A stretch of 64,000 bases of DNA, from positions 62,001 to 126,000 of the forward strand of contig JAUXTT010000014.1 in the NCBI GenBank assembly GCA_030684395.1. The letters are read 5' to 3'. This document shows, in pieces, positions 52,480 to 64,000 of the stretch. The first letter of the stretch is position 1. Each line of letters opens with the position of its first letter. The notes beneath the pieces were generated by a model. That model did no database searches. It saw only the letters and a program-made list of their open reading frames with translations, and was not told the DNA's origin. Position numbers and translations under genes: made by a program. This DNA comes from Bacteroidota bacterium (GTDB taxonomy: Bacteria; Bacteroidota; Bacteroidia; B-17B0; Aurantibacillaceae).

Positions 52480-52752
52480 ATGAAAACAACTACTAAATTA
52501 TTGATAGGAACACTTGCATTGGTGTTCCTACAAAATCGAACAAATGCACAATCCACACAGACAGGACTTGGAATATTAGGACATACCAACGCTGGTGGAG
52601 TTGCTACTCACTATCTTGGATGGAACGCACTTTCAACAATCCCACTTAGTATTGAACACAAAGGTAATTTTCCAATCAACTTTAGTACAAGTGGTACTCA
52701 AAGGATGACAATACTTCCTACAACGGGGTTCGTAGGAACAAACACTCTATAA
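52480..52752 (+). pseudogene. Truncated secreted protein, second gene of module A
   Basis: 90 residues: a signal peptide (ends TNAQ), then a segment like that of the larger protein starting at 63373 (both have the FPINFSTSGTQRM / LPIKFATNNTQRM block). It stops abruptly after TTGFVGTNTL, where relatives continue VGIGT and hundreds of residues. The break is at about 52735 and the mobile element begins immediately after, so insertion or a deletion at its left end probably removed the rest. Confidence 0.7.
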
Positions 52753-52791
52753 GGGTAGTTTTCATTCAGTATTTTATTTTGATGCAATAAA

Positions 52792-52814
52792 AAAGTCCCA
52801 GTAAAAGGGACTTT
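52792..52814 (-). terminator. Intrinsic terminator of the integrase operon
   Basis: Minus-strand arms AAAGTCCC/GGGACTTT (7-base loop) run into a T-rich tail (TTTTATTG), 28 bases past the integrase stop. Confidence 0.8.
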
Positions 52815-52841
52815 CGTATTTTATAGAAGTATCGAAAACAA

Positions 52842-53708
52842 TCAGAACATTTCCAACGGATGAAATTTCTTTAACTGTTCGTGTAACGCATCGTATTTCT
52901 TTGTTTCATACCTCCGTGTACTTGCAGCGTGTTTATGACCGCACATTATCATTGCTTCCATTAAACCGTGTTCGTTTCGCCAATGTGTAATAACACTGGT
53001 ACGAATGTGATAAAGATTTTTAACCTGTGGGTTCAACCGCTGGGCTTTCTTTAGTATCTGTTTGATTGGGTTCTCTATATTTTTAGCGTAGCCATGTGAA
53101 AGAAAAAACTGGTCGCTGTCTTCTTTCTTGTTTACCAGTAATTTCTTTCGATGTTCCTTAACGTATTCGTGTAAGTCCAGTATTTGAACTGGCTCTAATT
53201 TCAACCGTCTGGAATTGCTTCTCATTTGACCTTGCACAAACACTGTCCCCGTTTTAAAATCAACATCGGTGATTCTCATTTCTTCCAGCTCATTACGTTT
53301 CAACGCTTGAAATAAAACAAATCCAAGCATACACCTGTTGCGGTAATCAATCAGCTTCACAGGCTCAAGAGTTTCGTATATCTTCACCAAATCACTTTTT
53401 TCGATGGGTATAGGTGGTAGCGTACTTTCTTCTGTTCGCTCCATCCAGCTTTCTGCTGGATTGTTTTTAGTTCCAAGAAAACGATAGTAGTGCCGAATTA
53501 TATTTTCTTTAAGGTTAAGCGTGGATTGCTTAAAACCTTGCTCCCTGTATGTTTGAAGCCAATCGGTAAACTGGCTACGCTTCACTTCGGTAACGTTGAG
53601 TTTGTTTTCTTCCACCCAGTTTAAATACTTCACAGCTACTTTGTCGTAACGTGCTGCACCTTTAAAATGGATGCCGATATTAATTAGGTATGTTTCAAAT
53701 TGTTTCAT
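52842..53708 (-). CDS. Tyrosine recombinase-like protein with degraded active site
   Basis: 288 residues. The N-terminal SAM-like core-binding domain (~1-100) is followed by a catalytic domain. The first arginine is in ALKRNELEEM and the tyrosine in RRYETKKY, but the normal H-x-x-R-H box reads YHIRTSVITHW, so the two histidines of that box are Tyr and Thr. The GHKH position is kept. This predicts low or no cleavage activity, or a helper role for the intact partner. It overlaps the partner's end by 14 bases (53695-53708), so both are made together. Confidence 0.85.
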   Translation of the reverse strand: MKQFETYLINIGIHFKGAARYDKVAVKYLNWVEENKLNVTEVKRSQFTDWLQTYREQGFKQSTLNLKENIIRHYYRFLGTKNNPAESWMERTEESTLPPIPIEKSDLVKIYETLEPVKLIDYRNRCMLGFVLFQALKRNELEEMRITDVDFKTGTVFVQGQMRSNSRRLKLEPVQILDLHEYVKEHRKKLLVNKKEDSDQFFLSHGYAKNIENPIKQILKKAQRLNPQVKNLYHIRTSVITHWRNEHGLMEAMIMCGHKHAASTRRYETKKYDALHEQLKKFHPLEMF

Positions 53709-54633
53709 TCTGTATTAAGTTGGTTAAGTGTATATATACCTGTGTGGTGCATAGTGAGCGGTGTCCGAGCATTAATGCAATCATTTCAATATCCTTCGTT
53801 GTCATGTAAAGATGAGTACCGAGCGTATGCCTGAGCGTATGAATACCGATAAGTTTATCGCTGCCATAAATACTCTTAGCTTTCTTCCAGAGTTTTTGCA
53901 ATCTTTTTAGCAATGCCTTTTTAGCAAGTTCCTTCCCGTTTACTCCAATAAAAAAAGCATCAGGGTTGCTATGGTTGGATAACTCTTCGATATAAACATC
54001 ACGATAATTATAAACGTAGTCTTCCAAATGCTGCTGTACCGTTGGCGACATCATTACATAACGCTCACTTCCGTTCTTGCTTTTCCGTACATGGATTCTA
54101 CTTCTGTTGAAATCAATATCGGTTATCATTAATCTAAGTCCTTCCCCGTTGCGCATACCACAGCCGTAATAAATGGCAAGTATTGCCCTGTTCAAATATC
54201 CTAAACCATCGCTATCACAAACAGCATACAACTGTTTAATTTCCTCACGTGTTAAAACGGTAATTTCTTTTTGCTTTGTTTTCTTCCTGTGTCTTATGAA
54301 AATGGTATTCGCTTCAATGCCTTCAATAGCAAGGTATTTCCAGAACTTGGATATTGCATTGATGTGAAGGTTAATTGTGGATTGCCAGAGTGTACCGCCA
54401 AAATTTTCGTTTACCCGTTCCTGTTCCATGTATAGCATATAACTGTCGGCAACGGGTTGGTTAATTTCTTTAATGGTTTTAATCCCGTTGCCTTCAACGT
54501 AGCTAAGGAACTCTTTCATCCTGTCGGTATGCTGGTCAATATAAATTTGGTCTTTGCCTTCCTTCTTTAACTCGTATGTAAATTCGCTCATTACTTTATT
54601 GAACTCTGGTGCGTGTACTCTGGTGTTCTTCAT
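53695..54633 (-). CDS. Tyrosine recombinase (XerC/D-like)
   Basis: 312 residues with the complete set of catalytic residues: arginine in GCGMRNGEGL, H-x-x-R-H in HTLRHTLGTHL, histidine in LGHRSLCTT and tyrosine in VYIHLTN. The catalytic domain is preceded by a core-binding domain. This is the active integrase candidate. It overlaps the degraded partner by 14 bases. Tandem integrases with one degenerate member occur in some Bacteroidota elements; how the pair divides the work is unknown. Confidence 0.92.
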   Translation of the reverse strand: MKNTRVHAPEFNKVMSEFTYELKKEGKDQIYIDQHTDRMKEFLSYVEGNGIKTIKEINQPVADSYMLYMEQERVNENFGGTLWQSTINLHINAISKFWKYLAIEGIEANTIFIRHRKKTKQKEITVLTREEIKQLYAVCDSDGLGYLNRAILAIYYGCGMRNGEGLRLMITDIDFNRSRIHVRKSKNGSERYVMMSPTVQQHLEDYVYNYRDVYIEELSNHSNPDAFFIGVNGKELAKKALLKRLQKLWKKAKSIYGSDKLIGIHTLRHTLGTHLYMTTKDIEMIALMLGHRSLCTTQVYIHLTNLIQNETI

Positions 54634-54699: not shown

Positions 54700-56343
54700 T
54701 TATGCTCGTTTCAGCCTTTTTTGTTTTTTGGGAAACTTCTGGGAATCTTGGGAAACTTCTATCTGTATGCCGTTCATTTTTTCTTTCCAGCTTTCGGTAA
54801 TGCCTTGCAGTTCTTGGTAGTCGTTCCAGTCGCTTATCTTATAATCAATTCCTTTCTTTTTATTGCCACCGCAAACTATTACATAACCCAGTTCCTTTAA
54901 TGCGTTAAACTCCCTATAAAATGAACTGCTGCTCATTTCCATTACTTTCATTGCATCGGATAGCTTAAAGGTTTTTTCTTTGTCGTTTAAATCTGTTTTA
55001 AGCCGTTCCAGAAAACTTCTTTGCGTTGGACTGAGTTTGTCCCCTTGTGAAATTGCAATACTCTTAAATAGCTCTAATGCAGCTTGTAGATGTTCGGTTG
55101 TTGCTTCAATGTATTCCTGTCCGTAACTATCCTGTTTCTTTGGTAACAGGTGTTGGTGCAATAGCGTTACTGACTGGATAAAGGTAAGCAGTTGGGGTAA
55201 GCTCCTTAATTGCTGGTTCACGCTGCTCGGTAGTTCCAGTTCCATTGCATAAGGAATGACCACACGCATCGGTTTAATAAAGCGTTGAATGTTCCTTAAC
55301 GTGTGTACAGCCTGTTCCTGCTTACCTATATCAATGATGCCTCCGCATTCTTTTTTATAATGTTCTAACAAAGCTGCTTTGTTCTTTTCGTTTTCATCCA
55401 GCCGAATTAAAAAACATTCTTCAAAAAATTTGCGGTTCATTGCTTCATCGTTGGAATAAGCCATCAGGCTTATGGCTCCTTCAATTACCTTGCTGCTACC
55501 GTATATTTGACCTGTATGGTAATTGGCTTCGGTGGTATAACGTTTAAGGATTCCGTTTTCAATAAATTCCTTTATGGTGTTGGCTCCCTTGAAATGCTTA
55601 TCAATGCTGGTAATGTACAGCACATTGTTCTTCCAGCTTTTTTTATTGGTGTTGTAGTACATTGAACTCGGAGCCATGCTGGTATAAGTGTGTATCTGCT
55701 CGTCAGGAACACAAGCACCTACCACGTCCATGAGCATTTTTGAAAGCTGCGGTGAGCCTTGCAGTAAAGCGTGTAAAGGCTTTTCAAAATGTCGGGATAG
55801 CAATATGAAAAATAATTGAACTGCTTTTTCTTTTTCGGTTACTATACCAGCCTGTTGCAATAAACCTTCAACACTTTCCAGTATGTTATCCGATGTTAAA
55901 TAAAACATTGCTTCCTTTTGCTCATGCTTAGATAGGGTAATGCTTTTAACGGTATCGGTTCTTTTTAGTTCATCGTGTCGAAACTTGTCCAGTTGTTCAC
56001 GGAGTGAAAACATAGCTGTTTTAATATCTGCTTCTTTTTCCTTTAGTTGAAAGGCTGCTTCACGGCAATACTTTTCCAATCGGTTAGTAATAAACAAGTC
56101 GAGCTTATCTATATGCGTGTAGGCATCGTTGGTGTGTGGGTGCTGGGCTACTTTGATAGTAGCAATAAGCACATCGTACTGCGTGGTGGGTCTGAATCCG
56201 AATATGGTAAACCTCAACTTGCCGTGTGTAAATCCGATGCGTGTTTCATCTGTCAGGTCAAAACCATAAGCATTGAGTAACGGCTCATTCACTTGCGTTG
56301 TAGGTTCTTTATCAAAGTTTATTGGTTGTATGTTCCTGTTCAT
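54700..56343 (-). CDS. Primase-helicase-like mobile-element protein with broken P-loop
   Basis: 547 residues. The central part (~180-330) resembles the helicase half of CHC2-primase proteins in integrative elements: LLQGSPQLSKMLMDVVGACVPDEQ followed by MAPSSMYYNTNKKSWKNNVLYITSID aligns with GxSxxGKSxLQ...ALYY...LxHKVLxIE. The Walker A position has lost its glycine/lysine pattern and the E of Walker B reads S. A C-terminal winged helix (~455-505; LSDAMKVMEMSSSSFYREFNAL) is present. Homology is judged by pattern only. If right, it is a former helicase that has kept DNA or protein binding. It lies 66 bases upstream of the integrase pair. Confidence 0.6.
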   Translation of the reverse strand: MNRNIQPINFDKEPTTQVNEPLLNAYGFDLTDETRIGFTHGKLRFTIFGFRPTTQYDVLIATIKVAQHPHTNDAYTHIDKLDLFITNRLEKYCREAAFQLKEKEADIKTAMFSLREQLDKFRHDELKRTDTVKSITLSKHEQKEAMFYLTSDNILESVEGLLQQAGIVTEKEKAVQLFFILLSRHFEKPLHALLQGSPQLSKMLMDVVGACVPDEQIHTYTSMAPSSMYYNTNKKSWKNNVLYITSIDKHFKGANTIKEFIENGILKRYTTEANYHTGQIYGSSKVIEGAISLMAYSNDEAMNRKFFEECFLIRLDENEKNKAALLEHYKKECGGIIDIGKQEQAVHTLRNIQRFIKPMRVVIPYAMELELPSSVNQQLRSLPQLLTFIQSVTLLHQHLLPKKQDSYGQEYIEATTEHLQAALELFKSIAISQGDKLSPTQRSFLERLKTDLNDKEKTFKLSDAMKVMEMSSSSFYREFNALKELGYVIVCGGNKKKGIDYKISDWNDYQELQGITESWKEKMNGIQIEVSQDSQKFPKKQKRLKRA

Positions 56344-56599: not shown

Positions 56600-57250
56600 T
56601 TAAGCTGCTAACTGTTGTGAATCTGCGTATAGGATTTTGCGAATCTTAGCAACTGTTGCAAGTGATGTATCATAAAGCTTTACACACTCCCTTACACTAA
56701 ATCCTTTCTTTAATCCTTCAACTACCTTCGGATATTTCGATAAAAATTCTTCTTTCTGCTCCACCGTTCCTAATGGTCTCCCGCAATGAACCTGATTCGC
56801 CTTAGCGGTCTGCATCCCGCTACGAATCCTTGAAATCAGGTTTCTACGCTCGTTTTTCGAGAACAGGCTCAGCATATGGAGCATTATTTCTGTTTGAAAA
56901 CTTGTTTCTCCTTTTTCATTTAGTGTTTCTGCGTTAAGGTCTTGCAAGTAAATACTAACACCAAGCTTGTGTAGCTCTTCGATTAGCTTTAACGTTTCAA
57001 TGGTTGACCTACCAAGTCTTGAAACCTCTGTTACCATTACCTTTTTAAACAAGCCCTTTCTTGCTCCATCTAATAACTGTTGTACACCTCTTCTTTCTTC
57101 GTTGGTCTTTGCCCCACTTATTTTCTCAGTGATAACGGTTACTACATCGTAGTTTAATTTAGCTGCTACCTTTTGCAAATCGTTTATCTGTCTTTGAAAA
57201 TCTTGCTGGTCGCTGCTTACTCTTCCGAAAATCGCTACTGTTGCTTTCAT
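56600..57250 (-). CDS. Serine recombinase (resolvase/invertase family)
   Basis: 216 residues. Arg10 and Ser12 of the catalytic motif FGRVSSDQQ, the E helix region and the VTEVSRLGRS block are intact. The C-terminal HTH (SVRECVKLYDTSLATVAKIRKIL) is short, as in resolvases/invertases. It may resolve multimers or invert an internal segment of the element. No obvious res repeats are seen close to it by eye. Confidence 0.92.
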   Translation of the reverse strand: MKATVAIFGRVSSDQQDFQRQINDLQKVAAKLNYDVVTVITEKISGAKTNEERRGVQQLLDGARKGLFKKVMVTEVSRLGRSTIETLKLIEELHKLGVSIYLQDLNAETLNEKGETSFQTEIMLHMLSLFSKNERRNLISRIRSGMQTAKANQVHCGRPLGTVEQKEEFLSKYPKVVEGLKKGFSVRECVKLYDTSLATVAKIRKILYADSQQLAA

Positions 57251-57357: not shown

Positions 57358-57630
57358 TTATATCATAACAGGATTGTTGAATTTCTTAATCAATACCTCA
57401 GCTAAGAATTTCAGATAATCAGTAATCGGCTGGTTATAGAAGTCCAGCTTACGGATTGTTTGGCTTATCACTTGCTGCTCGTTGATTGGAGCTTTAAAAA
57501 TTGCTTGTATCACAAAATCGGTGTCGATAAAGTGTGTTAATCCGTCTGTATCCAAAATCTCGAACAATTGGTACGGAGTATTTTTTTCTTCAAAAAAGTT
57601 GTGTAAGAATTGTTTGCTCATAGTGTTCAT
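57358..57630 (-). CDS. Small element-encoded protein, function unknown
   Basis: 90 residues (or 87 if started at the second methionine, MSKQ). Soluble, acidic, predicted helical, no motif. It is preceded by a TGAAAGCCTTGTTTTT repeat (57646-57661) that also occurs twice in the origin-like region, which ties it to element regulation. There is no evidence of a known role. Confidence 0.55.
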   Translation of the reverse strand: MNTMSKQFLHNFFEEKNTPYQLFEILDTDGLTHFIDTDFVIQAIFKAPINEQQVISQTIRKLDFYNQPITDYLKFLAEVLIKKFNNPVMI

Positions 57631-57645
57631 TTTTAATTGATGGTC

Positions 57646-57661
57646 TGAAAGCCTTGTTTTT
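57646..57661. repeat. 16-base direct repeat, copy 1 of 3
   Basis: TGAAAGCCTTGTTTTT here, TGAAAACCTTGTTTTT at 60288-60303 and TGAAAGCCTTGTTTTT at 60453-60468, all in the same orientation. Two of the three lie in the origin-like region, 165 bases apart. Confidence 0.7.
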
Positions 57662-57775: not shown

Positions 57776-59854
57776 TTATTTTCCTTTGAGCCACGTTCCT
57801 ATTGTTGTTTTTGAAACACCTGTAAGGTCTTCAATCTCTCGGTAGCTTTTACCCTCTGAGTGTAATTCTCTTACACGTTCTTTCTTTTGTTCACGCTCCA
57901 TGTTCCTTTGCTCTGTTGAAACGGTCTGTATATGTTCCGATTCATATTCACAATCCAAGTAATGAAATCCTAAACACCTGTTTTCTTTTTTCATCTCAAC
58001 CGTTATTACATTACTGGAATCGAATACCAGCTCCGAGCTTCGGCTCGGCTTCACCTGTTTAATGTAACGGATGCTTGCTCCTTTTGAACTCTTACCGATT
58101 GCGGAAACACTATCAACGAAATTCGATAAGTGTTTACTACCACCTAATTCATTTACCGTTAGCTGCGTTCCTTCTTTCATCTTCGGTGTGTGTGCCAGTA
58201 CCAGCATTGAAAGGTTAAATTCTTTCTTTAACTGGTTCAACCTTCTGATTAAATCCAACGCTACCGATGTATCTTGTGTTGATTCTGTTTTCAAGTACGT
58301 TAAGTTATCAATCACCAACACATCAGGATTCAGCGTTTCTATATCTGCTCTGATTTTATTGATAACTAAATCGTCCAGCTTGCTTGTCGGATTATCTTCT
58401 ACCAGCTTTTGGAAATCTATGTTATCAATAAACAGGTTATCCGAAAACTCGTACAGTTGTCCGCTTTCATCGGAGTATCTCATTTGAAATTGTTTATCAC
58501 TTAACTCAAAATCATAAAATAGTACTCGTAATGGCTTATTACCATTGGACAGTATGGTAAAGGTGTTTTTACCTTTTGAAAGTGCATCGGCTATTTGTGT
58601 TGCCCACACGCTTTTACCTGAACCAGTATCTGCAAACAATATATGCAGCTCACCACTTTGCCATATCGCTCCCATCAGTGGAGTAATGGCTGCTTGTTGT
58701 TTCGCATCCTGTAATCGTTGCTTTGCTGTTCGTGGACTGCTACCAGCTTTTATCTGCGTTGAGGTTTGTTGTTGAGGTATTTTAATTCCGTGTTCACCTG
58801 CAATGTAAAACAATGTAGCCAGCTTCACCTTACCATCATAGTCTTGGAGTATTGAAGTGTACTTTTCATCGGTCTGGTCATAGTCATACTTACTATACAA
58901 TGCACTTATTTTATGGAATAATTCTCTACCAGCTTCACCAAGCTCACACAATGCCCAGCCGATTTTCACCCAGTCTTTATAATCACTGGTAATATCGGTC
59001 TTGCTTTCTTCAATGGCTTTAACCAGTTGATTTACGCTTATTAATTTTTCTTTCAGCTCAGCTGCTGTGTTATTAATCTTTATCGGTACTGGTGTATCGC
59101 TTGTATTGTTTTCAACTGTTTTCTTTTGGGGTGTAGAGGTAAACCACTTATCCAAAAAGTTTTGGTCAAGTATTTTTCTTTGCCACGCTGCTGCAATGAA
59201 CGCATCTTTATCGTAGCTCAGGAAACAAGCTCTGGCAACATCTCGGCAAGCCTTATCCACTTCTAATGAGTAGTTTTCTCTTATGTAGTTCTTAACTGCA
59301 TCGAAGTAGTTGCCATGTGTTTCTTTATCTTGTGGTATCTGTACAAAAACTTTTATACCGTTGTTGCTTGGTGAGTTGAATATCAACACGGGTTCAAGCT
59401 CGGTGTCTTTGCTTAGTGTTTCTTTTAATGCTTTGATGTTGACGTTTTCCAGTCCGTCAAAGTCCAAGCACAAATACCCTGAGTGTTTTATCAGTTCATT
59501 GTTGCTGCGTTTGAAAAATGTTCCTGATGGTGTAATGTATTCCAGTACGGTTTTCTTTGTCTTACGTCTGCTTTCCTTATCCAGCTTTTCCAAGTTTAAA
59601 CACTTACGTCTTAAATGTTCATCGCTGGTGATTCTTTCGTACAGTTGCTCGATATTTATTACTGAGCTTGGTACTACTGATGTAGTGATTGGTGGCTCGT
59701 ACTGACTGAACTCAGATAGTTGGATTAGCTCACCGCTTTTATTTTGTAGTTCCTTTGCTTGGAGGTATTTTTCAAAGCTACTGTTTACTTCATCGGCTTT
59801 GATACCTATATTTAACGGGAATGGTTGTTGAGTGTTTGCATGATTAATTTCCAT
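57776..59854 (-). CDS. VirE-N / PriCT / RepA-type replication protein
   Basis: 692 residues from ATG 59854; a GTG at 59884 gives 10 extra residues, but the ATG overlaps the stop of the upstream gene by 11 bases, as for coupled genes. The N-terminal ~250 residues are the VirE-N/BT4734-like primase-polymerase region (GYLCLDFDGLE... IFNSPSNNGIKVFVQI). A PriCT_2 segment (~300-360; DYKDWVKIGWALCELG) follows, then a RecA/DnaB-like ATPase (~395-620; Walker A FADTGSGKSV, Walker B VLVIDNLTYL). A C-terminal helix-turn-helix (SYREIEDLTGVSKTTIGTWL) may bind the origin. It should initiate replication of the element, in cis to the GGACAG-rich region upstream of it. Confidence 0.85.
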   Translation of the reverse strand: MEINHANTQQPFPLNIGIKADEVNSSFEKYLQAKELQNKSGELIQLSEFSQYEPPITTSVVPSSVINIEQLYERITSDEHLRRKCLNLEKLDKESRRKTKKTVLEYITPSGTFFKRSNNELIKHSGYLCLDFDGLENVNIKALKETLSKDTELEPVLIFNSPSNNGIKVFVQIPQDKETHGNYFDAVKNYIRENYSLEVDKACRDVARACFLSYDKDAFIAAAWQRKILDQNFLDKWFTSTPQKKTVENNTSDTPVPIKINNTAAELKEKLISVNQLVKAIEESKTDITSDYKDWVKIGWALCELGEAGRELFHKISALYSKYDYDQTDEKYTSILQDYDGKVKLATLFYIAGEHGIKIPQQQTSTQIKAGSSPRTAKQRLQDAKQQAAITPLMGAIWQSGELHILFADTGSGKSVWATQIADALSKGKNTFTILSNGNKPLRVLFYDFELSDKQFQMRYSDESGQLYEFSDNLFIDNIDFQKLVEDNPTSKLDDLVINKIRADIETLNPDVLVIDNLTYLKTESTQDTSVALDLIRRLNQLKKEFNLSMLVLAHTPKMKEGTQLTVNELGGSKHLSNFVDSVSAIGKSSKGASIRYIKQVKPSRSSELVFDSSNVITVEMKKENRCLGFHYLDCEYESEHIQTVSTEQRNMEREQKKERVRELHSEGKSYREIEDLTGVSKTTIGTWLKGK

Positions 59855-60023
59855 TAGTGTTAAACTGTTTAGCGTGTTCCGCACTTATCAGGTGTTTTAT
59901 TAAAGCGGAATTATTGTACTTGAAGACCTTGTTAGAAGCAAGGTCTTCAATCTTTTTACGGGTAGCTTCATCTATTCTCATGGTGAACAGCTTGCTACAC
60001 GTTGATTGGTTTTTGTTTTTCAT
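59844..60023 (-). CDS. 59-residue ribbon-helix-helix protein
   Basis: A short open frame starting at ATG 60023 (MKNKNQSTCSKLFTMRIDE) and ending NTNGN. The strand KLFTMRID followed by two helices (EATRKKIEDLA and NNSALIKHLI) is the ribbon-helix-helix pattern of Arc/CopG-type regulators. Its stop codon overlaps the replication gene start by 11 bases (59844-59854), so it is a copy-number or operator-binding regulator candidate. A perfect 10-bp hairpin is embedded in its codons (59922-59948). Confidence 0.75.
   Translation of the reverse strand: MKNKNQSTCSKLFTMRIDEATRKKIEDLASNKVFKYNNSALIKHLISAEHAKQFNTNGN
59922..59948 (-). repeat. Perfect 10-bp hairpin inside the RHH coding sequence
   Basis: GAAGACCTTG / CAAGGTCTTC with a 7-base loop. 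Coding sequence rarely keeps such a stem by chance; it could act on translation of the replication gene or as a protein site. Confidence 0.6.
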
Positions 60024-60703
60024 CTTGTTTTGGTTTTATGAAAATGTTATTGTTTTACCAGTATACTAATGTATTTACGATAAGTCAAGTACTTACATGA
60101 ACTTTCTTGAAAATAATTTTCGATGCTCTGGTAATAATAAATGTAGGTACTGTACAAAGTGTGTATATCCGTGAAAATATTTTTTACTGTCCCGTTTGTT
60201 CTAAAGTGTCCCGTTTAGGTACGGGACAGGACAGTTATCTATCCCTGTCGGATTTACATTAGCACGTCAAACGGCATAGGTATTTTCTGAAAACCTTGTT
60301 TTTACTGATGTTTTTAGCTTTCCCTTCAATATCCTTCATTAAGTGTTTGGTAATCCTGATACGTGGGACGGACTGGACACCCAGGCTGGGGGGTGTTGCT
60401 CATTTCATCAAGTGGAAGAGAGAATAGGTTACTTGGCTTATATACTCGTTTTTGAAAGCCTTGTTTTTAAAGGGTTCAAAGTGCCTTTTAAAATTTCCAT
60501 ATAACTATTCTTTTTTTTTAATATATGTATATACTATCTACACACACAACCCCTCTCCCTCCATCTGATGATAAAACACAGCCTCCCCGTTCCGACTGTC
60601 CTGTCCCATAGTAAAGCAGGACACCAGTGTCCAGAACAGGACAGCATCCAACAATTATTTTATTTTCTCTGAGCTTTCGCTCACCATCAAAATATTTATT
60701 GAT
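60024..60703. other. Non-coding region rich in GGACAG inverted repeats, candidate replication origin
   Basis: 680 bases with no convincing gene. ACTGTCC (60186) pairs with GGACAGT (60229), and inside it TGTCCCGT pairs with ACGGGACA (60207-60228). Further on, CTGTCCTGT (60596) pairs with ACAGGACAG (60636), enclosing the perfect hairpin GGACAC-CA-GTGTCC (60619-60632). GGACGGACTGGACAC occurs at about 60366. Two copies of a 16-base direct repeat (60288, 60453) and an AT-rich tract (60510-60535) complete it. The position directly upstream of the replication operon fits an origin, or an oriT/single-strand origin. Confidence 0.6.
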
Positions 60704-63372: not shown

Positions 63373-64000
63373 ATGAAAAAACTAAAACTAAACCTTGCTG
63401 CAATTATTTTTCCACTGCTTTCGATTTCATCTTTTGCCCAGTCAAACTGGGAATTAGGCGGAAATGATGGTTTCCCACCAAACGCAGTCAATGCCACCAA
63501 TAATACTTTGGGTACTTTAAATAACTTGCCAATAAAATTTGCCACCAACAATACCCAACGCATGTTCATAAGTGCAAGCACCCCGGGTTTGCATACCCGC
63601 GTTGGCATTGGTTCTTTGTTCAGCAATGGTATACAGCCATTTGCCTCTCTTCACATACAGTCAGACAACACTTTTGGTGCAGGTGGAGGCACGCGCCCTT
63701 GGATGCAACCCACACCAACATTACCTAACCCGGGTTTGCTCATTGGCAATGAAGATAATATTTGGCTGGGTCTGCGAAACAAAGGCGGAAATGATCTTAA
63801 TGATGCTGTACTCAACTGGGGAGATAATGGTGGTTCTACCGCTCCGGTTTCAGACTATTTTCGTTTCACCTTTACACATTACGGAAGTACTTTTTTAGGA
63901 AGTAATAATGATGGCCTTGAAATTATGCGTTTAGCACCTAACTCATTTGTAGGCATAGGAGATTATAATATTAATGGCATATTGCAACCTCAAAGCAAAT
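63373..64000 (+). CDS. Large secreted protein, partial at window end
   Basis: The frame starts at ATG 63373 (signal peptide MKKLKLNLAAIIFPLLSISSFAQ) and is open to the last base. The first ~70 residues match the truncated gene at 52480. Later parts (ASLHIQSDNTF, GLLIGNEDNIWLGLRN) look like repeated strands of an adhesin or tail-fibre-like protein. A T9SS sorting domain is expected at its C-terminus beyond the window, as for related proteins. Confidence 0.75.
   Translation, partial: MKKLKLNLAAIIFPLLSISSFAQSNWELGGNDGFPPNAVNATNNTLGTLNNLPIKFATNNTQRMFISASTPGLHTRVGIGSLFSNGIQPFASLHIQSDNTFGAGGGTRPWMQPTPTLPNPGLLIGNEDNIWLGLRNKGGNDLNDAVLNWGDNGGSTAPVSDYFRFTFTHYGSTFLGSNNDGLEIMRLAPNSFVGIGDYNINGILQPQSK

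Follow-up and report, generated by a model that had tools for sequence, protein, structure and literature searches.

The window analysed here, a 64,000-nucleotide stretch of a Bacteroidota contig (JAUXTT010000014.1), carries a minus-strand operon in which the 3' end of a gene for a 59-residue RHH-like protein (59844-60023) overlaps the start of the gene for Rep (57776-59851), a protein of 691 residues. The Rep frame is intact and, by domain search and structure model, comprises a BT4734-like AEP primase, PriCT_2, an AAA_25/SF4 helicase and a C-terminal HTH. The helicase resembles DnaB and T7 gp4 by fold and by sequence profile, and we therefore assign it as an SF4 replicative helicase. AlphaFold2, given an alignment that omitted the row from plasmid record L029, models the C-terminus (residues 646-689, encoded at 57785-57916) as an HTH of three helices, and its matches to HTH profiles are weak; taken with the covariation described below, this HTH is the predicted iteron reader. 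Profile searches of Pfam and PHROGs gave no match for the RHH-like protein, an ORF with homologs of 55-58 residues at the same place in three related loci (L016, L039, L040). A putative sigma-70-like promoter for the operon (TTGACT-17-TATACT, 60060-60088, minus strand), a similar block to which is found in L040, lies about 100 bp from the nearest GGACA word.

Beyond Rep, the minus strand encodes a 90-residue protein matching phrog_6004 in PHROGs (unknown function, 57358-57630), a serine recombinase of the resolvase type (56600-57250), a 547-residue protein for which profile searches found no family (54700-56343), a XerA/C/D-like tyrosine recombinase (53695-54633) and a second tyrosine recombinase that overlaps it (52842-53708), the recombinases having been identified by domain search. 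The integration genes are two tyrosine recombinases and one resolvase, and no recognised relaxase is found among the genes of the element. Comparison of 52500-52860 with positions from 57000 rightwards at k=10 gave no att repeat, only low-complexity words. A genome of the same genus (G001) lacks all of 51281-67230; there the zinc-ribbon gene is followed directly by the gene that stands to the right of 67230 in the source contig. Judged by this comparison, 51281-67230 is a variable hotspot, and since the gap corresponds to the larger region as a whole, G001 leaves the ends of the element undefined. We note that an ORF at 52480-52752 resembles the N-terminus of the secreted-type protein at 63373 and stops abruptly beside the tyrosine recombinases; it looks truncated, perhaps because the element inserted there. 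Our best explanation includes an integrated element spanning at least 52.8-60.7 kb.

The region 60024-60703, upstream of the RHH-rep operon, is noncoding apart from short chance ORFs. The preliminary description had singled it out for a cluster of GGACAG-type words, and the cluster is real: GGACA or TGTCC occurs ten times between 60188 and 60643, where the remainder of the window predicts 0.49. The sequence GGACAGGACAG has one copy on each strand of the whole window, and both fall inside the region. Cluster 1 (60186-60235, plus strand; ACTGTCCCG...GTGTCCCG...CGGGACAGGACAGT) consists of an inner TGTCCCG/CGGGACA pair nested within an outer ACTGTCC/GGACAGT pair, and its fold as single-stranded DNA has an energy of -19 kcal/mol (z -4.0 against shuffles). 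Repeat comparison and the word scan place cluster 2 at 60595-60645 on the minus strand; the two clusters are inverted copies of a single unit of about 50 bp (30-nt arms, 80%, 359 nt apart). The nested hairpin words described previously are present in both, yet only cluster 1 folds beyond shuffles, the stability of cluster 2 being that of shuffled sequence (z -0.87). Between them lie the additional single words GGACGG (60366) and GGACAC (60375), together at 60366-60380 on the plus strand, and an AT-rich run (about 60505-60545), a candidate DNA-unwinding element; both had been noted before, as had the position upstream of the RHH-like gene and Rep. The 16-bp direct repeat TGAAAGCCTTGTTTTT was likewise recovered on the plus strand, with an exact copy (60453-60468) and a one-base variant (60288-60303) inside the region and the other exact copy at 57646-57661. 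Its copies flank the RHH-rep operon, and it is possibly a resolvase or regulatory site.

The same words adjoin the RHH-rep genes in three relatives whose Rep proteins are 49-56% identical to that of the window (L016, L039, L040), so the lack of conservation that would have told against an origin is not what we find. In L016, a Chitinophagaceae MAG contig (Rep 51-52%, RHH-like protein 46% identical), five TGGGACA words at a 13-bp period, with inverted copies, stand upstream of RHH-rep. L039 (Rep 56%) and L040 (Rep 49%), full-length relatives from the whole-genome search, have GGGACA/TGGACA clusters and an RHH-like gene placed as in the window. GGGACA clusters flank rep in L040 and the helicase half in L041. 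Where only the helicase-HTH half is shared (L041-L043, Bacteroidales L020-L024, and L029 and L030 from plasmid records), GGGACA clusters are again present, in most cases at the helicase 3' end. A scan from -200 to +350 nt around the helicase stop codon found inverted word clusters with a score of at least 6, the cut-off, in 53% of 57 loci compared to 2.8% of 577 control windows; it gave no scored cluster in L081 and L086 and only weak words in L082 and L087. The layout is regular: two to three copies repeat every 9 bp and are followed, after a gap, by two to three on the other strand, and in many loci the array begins about 1-20 nt past the stop codon (for example <1 <10 <19 >37 >46 nt). The window cluster differs in its irregular spacing (19 and 5 bp, against 9 bp in these helicase-only relatives) and in sitting upstream of rep rather than 3' of it. 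In held-out genomes, outside the set from which the hypothesis was formed, clusters were present at five of five new loci. The search of viral_contigs with whole Rep gave either no relative or one partial match of 27% identity, and the helicase alignment was needed. The search of other elements proposed in the preliminary description finds the words kept beside rep in a number of Rep clades and in many genera, and multiple short repeats beside the initiator gene in excess of chance, a property expected of iteron origins, are seen in the window and its relatives alike.

Some of these loci have further features in their vicinity. L042 (13256-13294) and L043 (2651-2690) each contain another inverted TGTCCC/GGGACA unit, kilobases from rep and beside a DNA-methyltransferase-like gene, which could be an element end or a second binding site. 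At L016:6059-9611 the related Rep adjoins genes resembling type III CRISPR-Cas (Cas10-like) components. On the helicase 3' side, L048 (recognition helix VSEGAVRKWLK) has a dense GTACGC/TACGCA array (score 18) and L044 has GGAAAC words within the gene end followed by long AACTCAAAAAAACTC direct repeats.

The word itself varies between relatives (GGGACA, GTGGAC, CGGACA, GTGAAC, GTTACA/GTAACA, GGTAAC, GTACGA, CGGACG), and it follows the C-terminal HTH of Rep. For 35 dereplicated loci, the word was taken as the best inverted 6-mer, picked by script; for the upstream-type loci, which are the window, L016 and L039, it had to be taken from the best-scoring stretch wherever that lay near rep. Similarity of words correlates with recognition-helix identity once the helicase core is accounted for (partial Mantel 0.42, permutation p=0.0002) but not with the core once the HTH is accounted for (0.04, p=0.18), although tests of this kind can be too permissive when the sequences compared are related. 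Among pairs of loci with 60-86% identical cores, the two members have the same word in all 18 pairs with like HTHs and in 4% of the 49 pairs with unlike HTHs; L049 and L050, for instance, share 82% of the core and 25% of the recognition helix, and their words are GTTACA and GTGAAC. The nearest neighbour by HTH predicts the word correctly at 27 of 35 loci, the nearest by core at 21, and random pairs in 20% of cases. Both held-out loci with a known HTH class (MKVTRVLN, MRVSRVLK) have the expected GTTACA/GTAACA word. Through this covariation the repeats are matched to the DNA-binding domain of the initiator, as those of an iteron origin should be, and binding by Rep through its own HTH is the simplest reading.

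The preliminary description had offered the region as a candidate origin with iteron-like or strand-conversion hairpins; conservation of the words beside rep in several clades supports the origin reading but not its hairpin and strand-conversion part. Such a reading would have the inverted words fold as single-stranded hairpins that serve as strand-initiation or conversion sites, like ssiA/ssiB of RSF1010 or the origin of pRN1, and are read by the primase and not by the HTH. Cluster 1 does fold well, two inverted copies recall the ssiA/ssiB layout, and pRN1, with a similar operon, uses a stem-loop of about 100 bp (PMC4234260). However, across the arms in 28 relatives, bases pair at chance level both in the spacers (27/84, 32%) and on the loop side (28/97, 29%), whereas the match is 73% where the next word lies. 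The words are kept, and the repeats therefore behave as duplex binding sites in inverted order. Furthermore, the L016 array is direct with a 13-bp period, cluster 2 is no stabler than its shuffles, and the word tracks the HTH and not the core. We consider the hairpin explanation unlikely; the hairpins are best read, from these sequence comparisons, as a by-product of inverted iterons. Neither a pRN1-type origin, defined by a conserved stem-loop, nor an ssi-type strand-initiation hairpin is supported, the former in view of the chance-level complementarity at the 28 loci and the latter in view of cluster 2 and the missing conserved stem.

Sites bound by Rep might instead serve excision or mobilisation, in the manner of the large cis region of NBU1, and not replication. 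NBU1 excision depends on an extensive region in which two further genes and oriT lie, Tn4555 requires an extra protein (PMC5704250), and the Tn4555-like L029 has a cluster of the iteron kind; but the window element is without a recognised relaxase, its primase and replicative-type helicase are fused and apparently intact, and fused-Rep elements with other recombinases have the same words. We judge this very unlikely as the sole function, though the GGACA words could serve excision or regulation as well. Hardly probable at all is that the RHH-like protein uses the words as its operators and that they regulate rep only. The RHH-like gene is directly adjacent in the four fused-Rep loci, but clusters also lie beside the helicase where no RHH-like gene was noticed adjacent (L041-L043, L029), the words covary with the HTH of Rep, and the promoter block shared with L040 is separate from them. 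That shared block leads us to suggest that the RHH-like protein probably represses the rep promoter apart from the iterons, autorepressor being its more likely role. Transcription terminators were ruled out, as there is no T-run and copies occur also upstream of the operon, and so were MITE or IS ends, since the genome has the cluster only once and it is not conserved apart from rep. An Rfam search gave only sub-threshold chance matches.

We conclude that an integrated Bacteroidota element probably has its iteron-type replication origin in this cluster. The C-terminal HTH of Rep would recognise the GGGACA/GGACAG words in double-stranded form, and the words on both strands would seat oppositely facing Rep complexes around the AT-rich stretch. 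The SF4 helicase domain would then unwind the DNA, and the fused AEP primase would prime both strands of the excised circle; the assembly and priming steps, like replication of a circular form, are suggested by analogy with pRN1, P4 alpha and RSF1010 (PMC4234260). More broadly, the relatives may represent a Bacteroidota-wide modular replicon, in which SF4-helicase initiators swap the C-terminal HTH and the inverted iteron word together while the core stays constant, a proposal on which we find ourselves evenly divided. Were it true, integrated mobilizable elements, and with them Tn4555-type resistance transposons, would possess many orthogonal (compatible) origin specificities, and such 'transposons' would be true replicons. 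The findings offer a definition of the origin at sequence level for a large group of integrative elements in Bacteroidota, among them the Tn4555-type elements by which beta-lactamase genes are spread. They suggest a reason for the primase and helicase genes of such elements and for their need of cis-acting DNA, and the pairing of HTH with word predicts compatibility groups.

A literature search found no description of such an origin family, including for Tn4555/NBU1 (the original NBU1 and Tn4555 papers being outside its scope). In pRN1, the orf56 product is an RHH protein. The window operon is like that of pRN1 (orf56, and orf904 with primase-polymerase, helicase and winged helix) in placing a short repressor gene before an AEP primase-helicase with a C-terminal DNA-binding domain, and the pRN1 origin also adjoins rep and is movable (PMC4234260). 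The window helicase is, however, SF4/DnaB-like where that of pRN1 is SF3 (PMC4234260), the host is bacterial, and the window origin would consist of inverted iterons and not of a structural stem-loop. P4 alpha, which binds ori repeats, is likewise a single protein with a primase, a helicase and, at its C-terminus, a DNA-binding domain, but its primase is of the Toprim type (PMC4234260) and that of the window clade is AEP, the comparison being one of architecture. RSF1010 oriV with RepA-RepB'-RepC offers iterons, a replicative helicase and primase, and two inverted sites; there three proteins are used, whereas one protein here unites helicase, primase and iteron reader, and the window family is without conservation of an ssi-type stem. 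The Tn4555/NBU1-type mobilizable elements of Bacteroides are also comparable. L029 (CP103138.1) is a Tn4555-like element with cfxA whose database record is a stand-alone circular plasmid of 10,057 bp, and it has the gene order given for Tn4555 in PMC13183296 (integrase, TnpC, excisionase, AAA ATPase, DUF6371, cfxA). It differs from the window element in having a separate DUF6371 gene instead of the fused AEP primase and a mobilization protein, and resembles it in its related AAA_25-HTH helicase and the GGGACA inverted cluster at the helicase 3' end.
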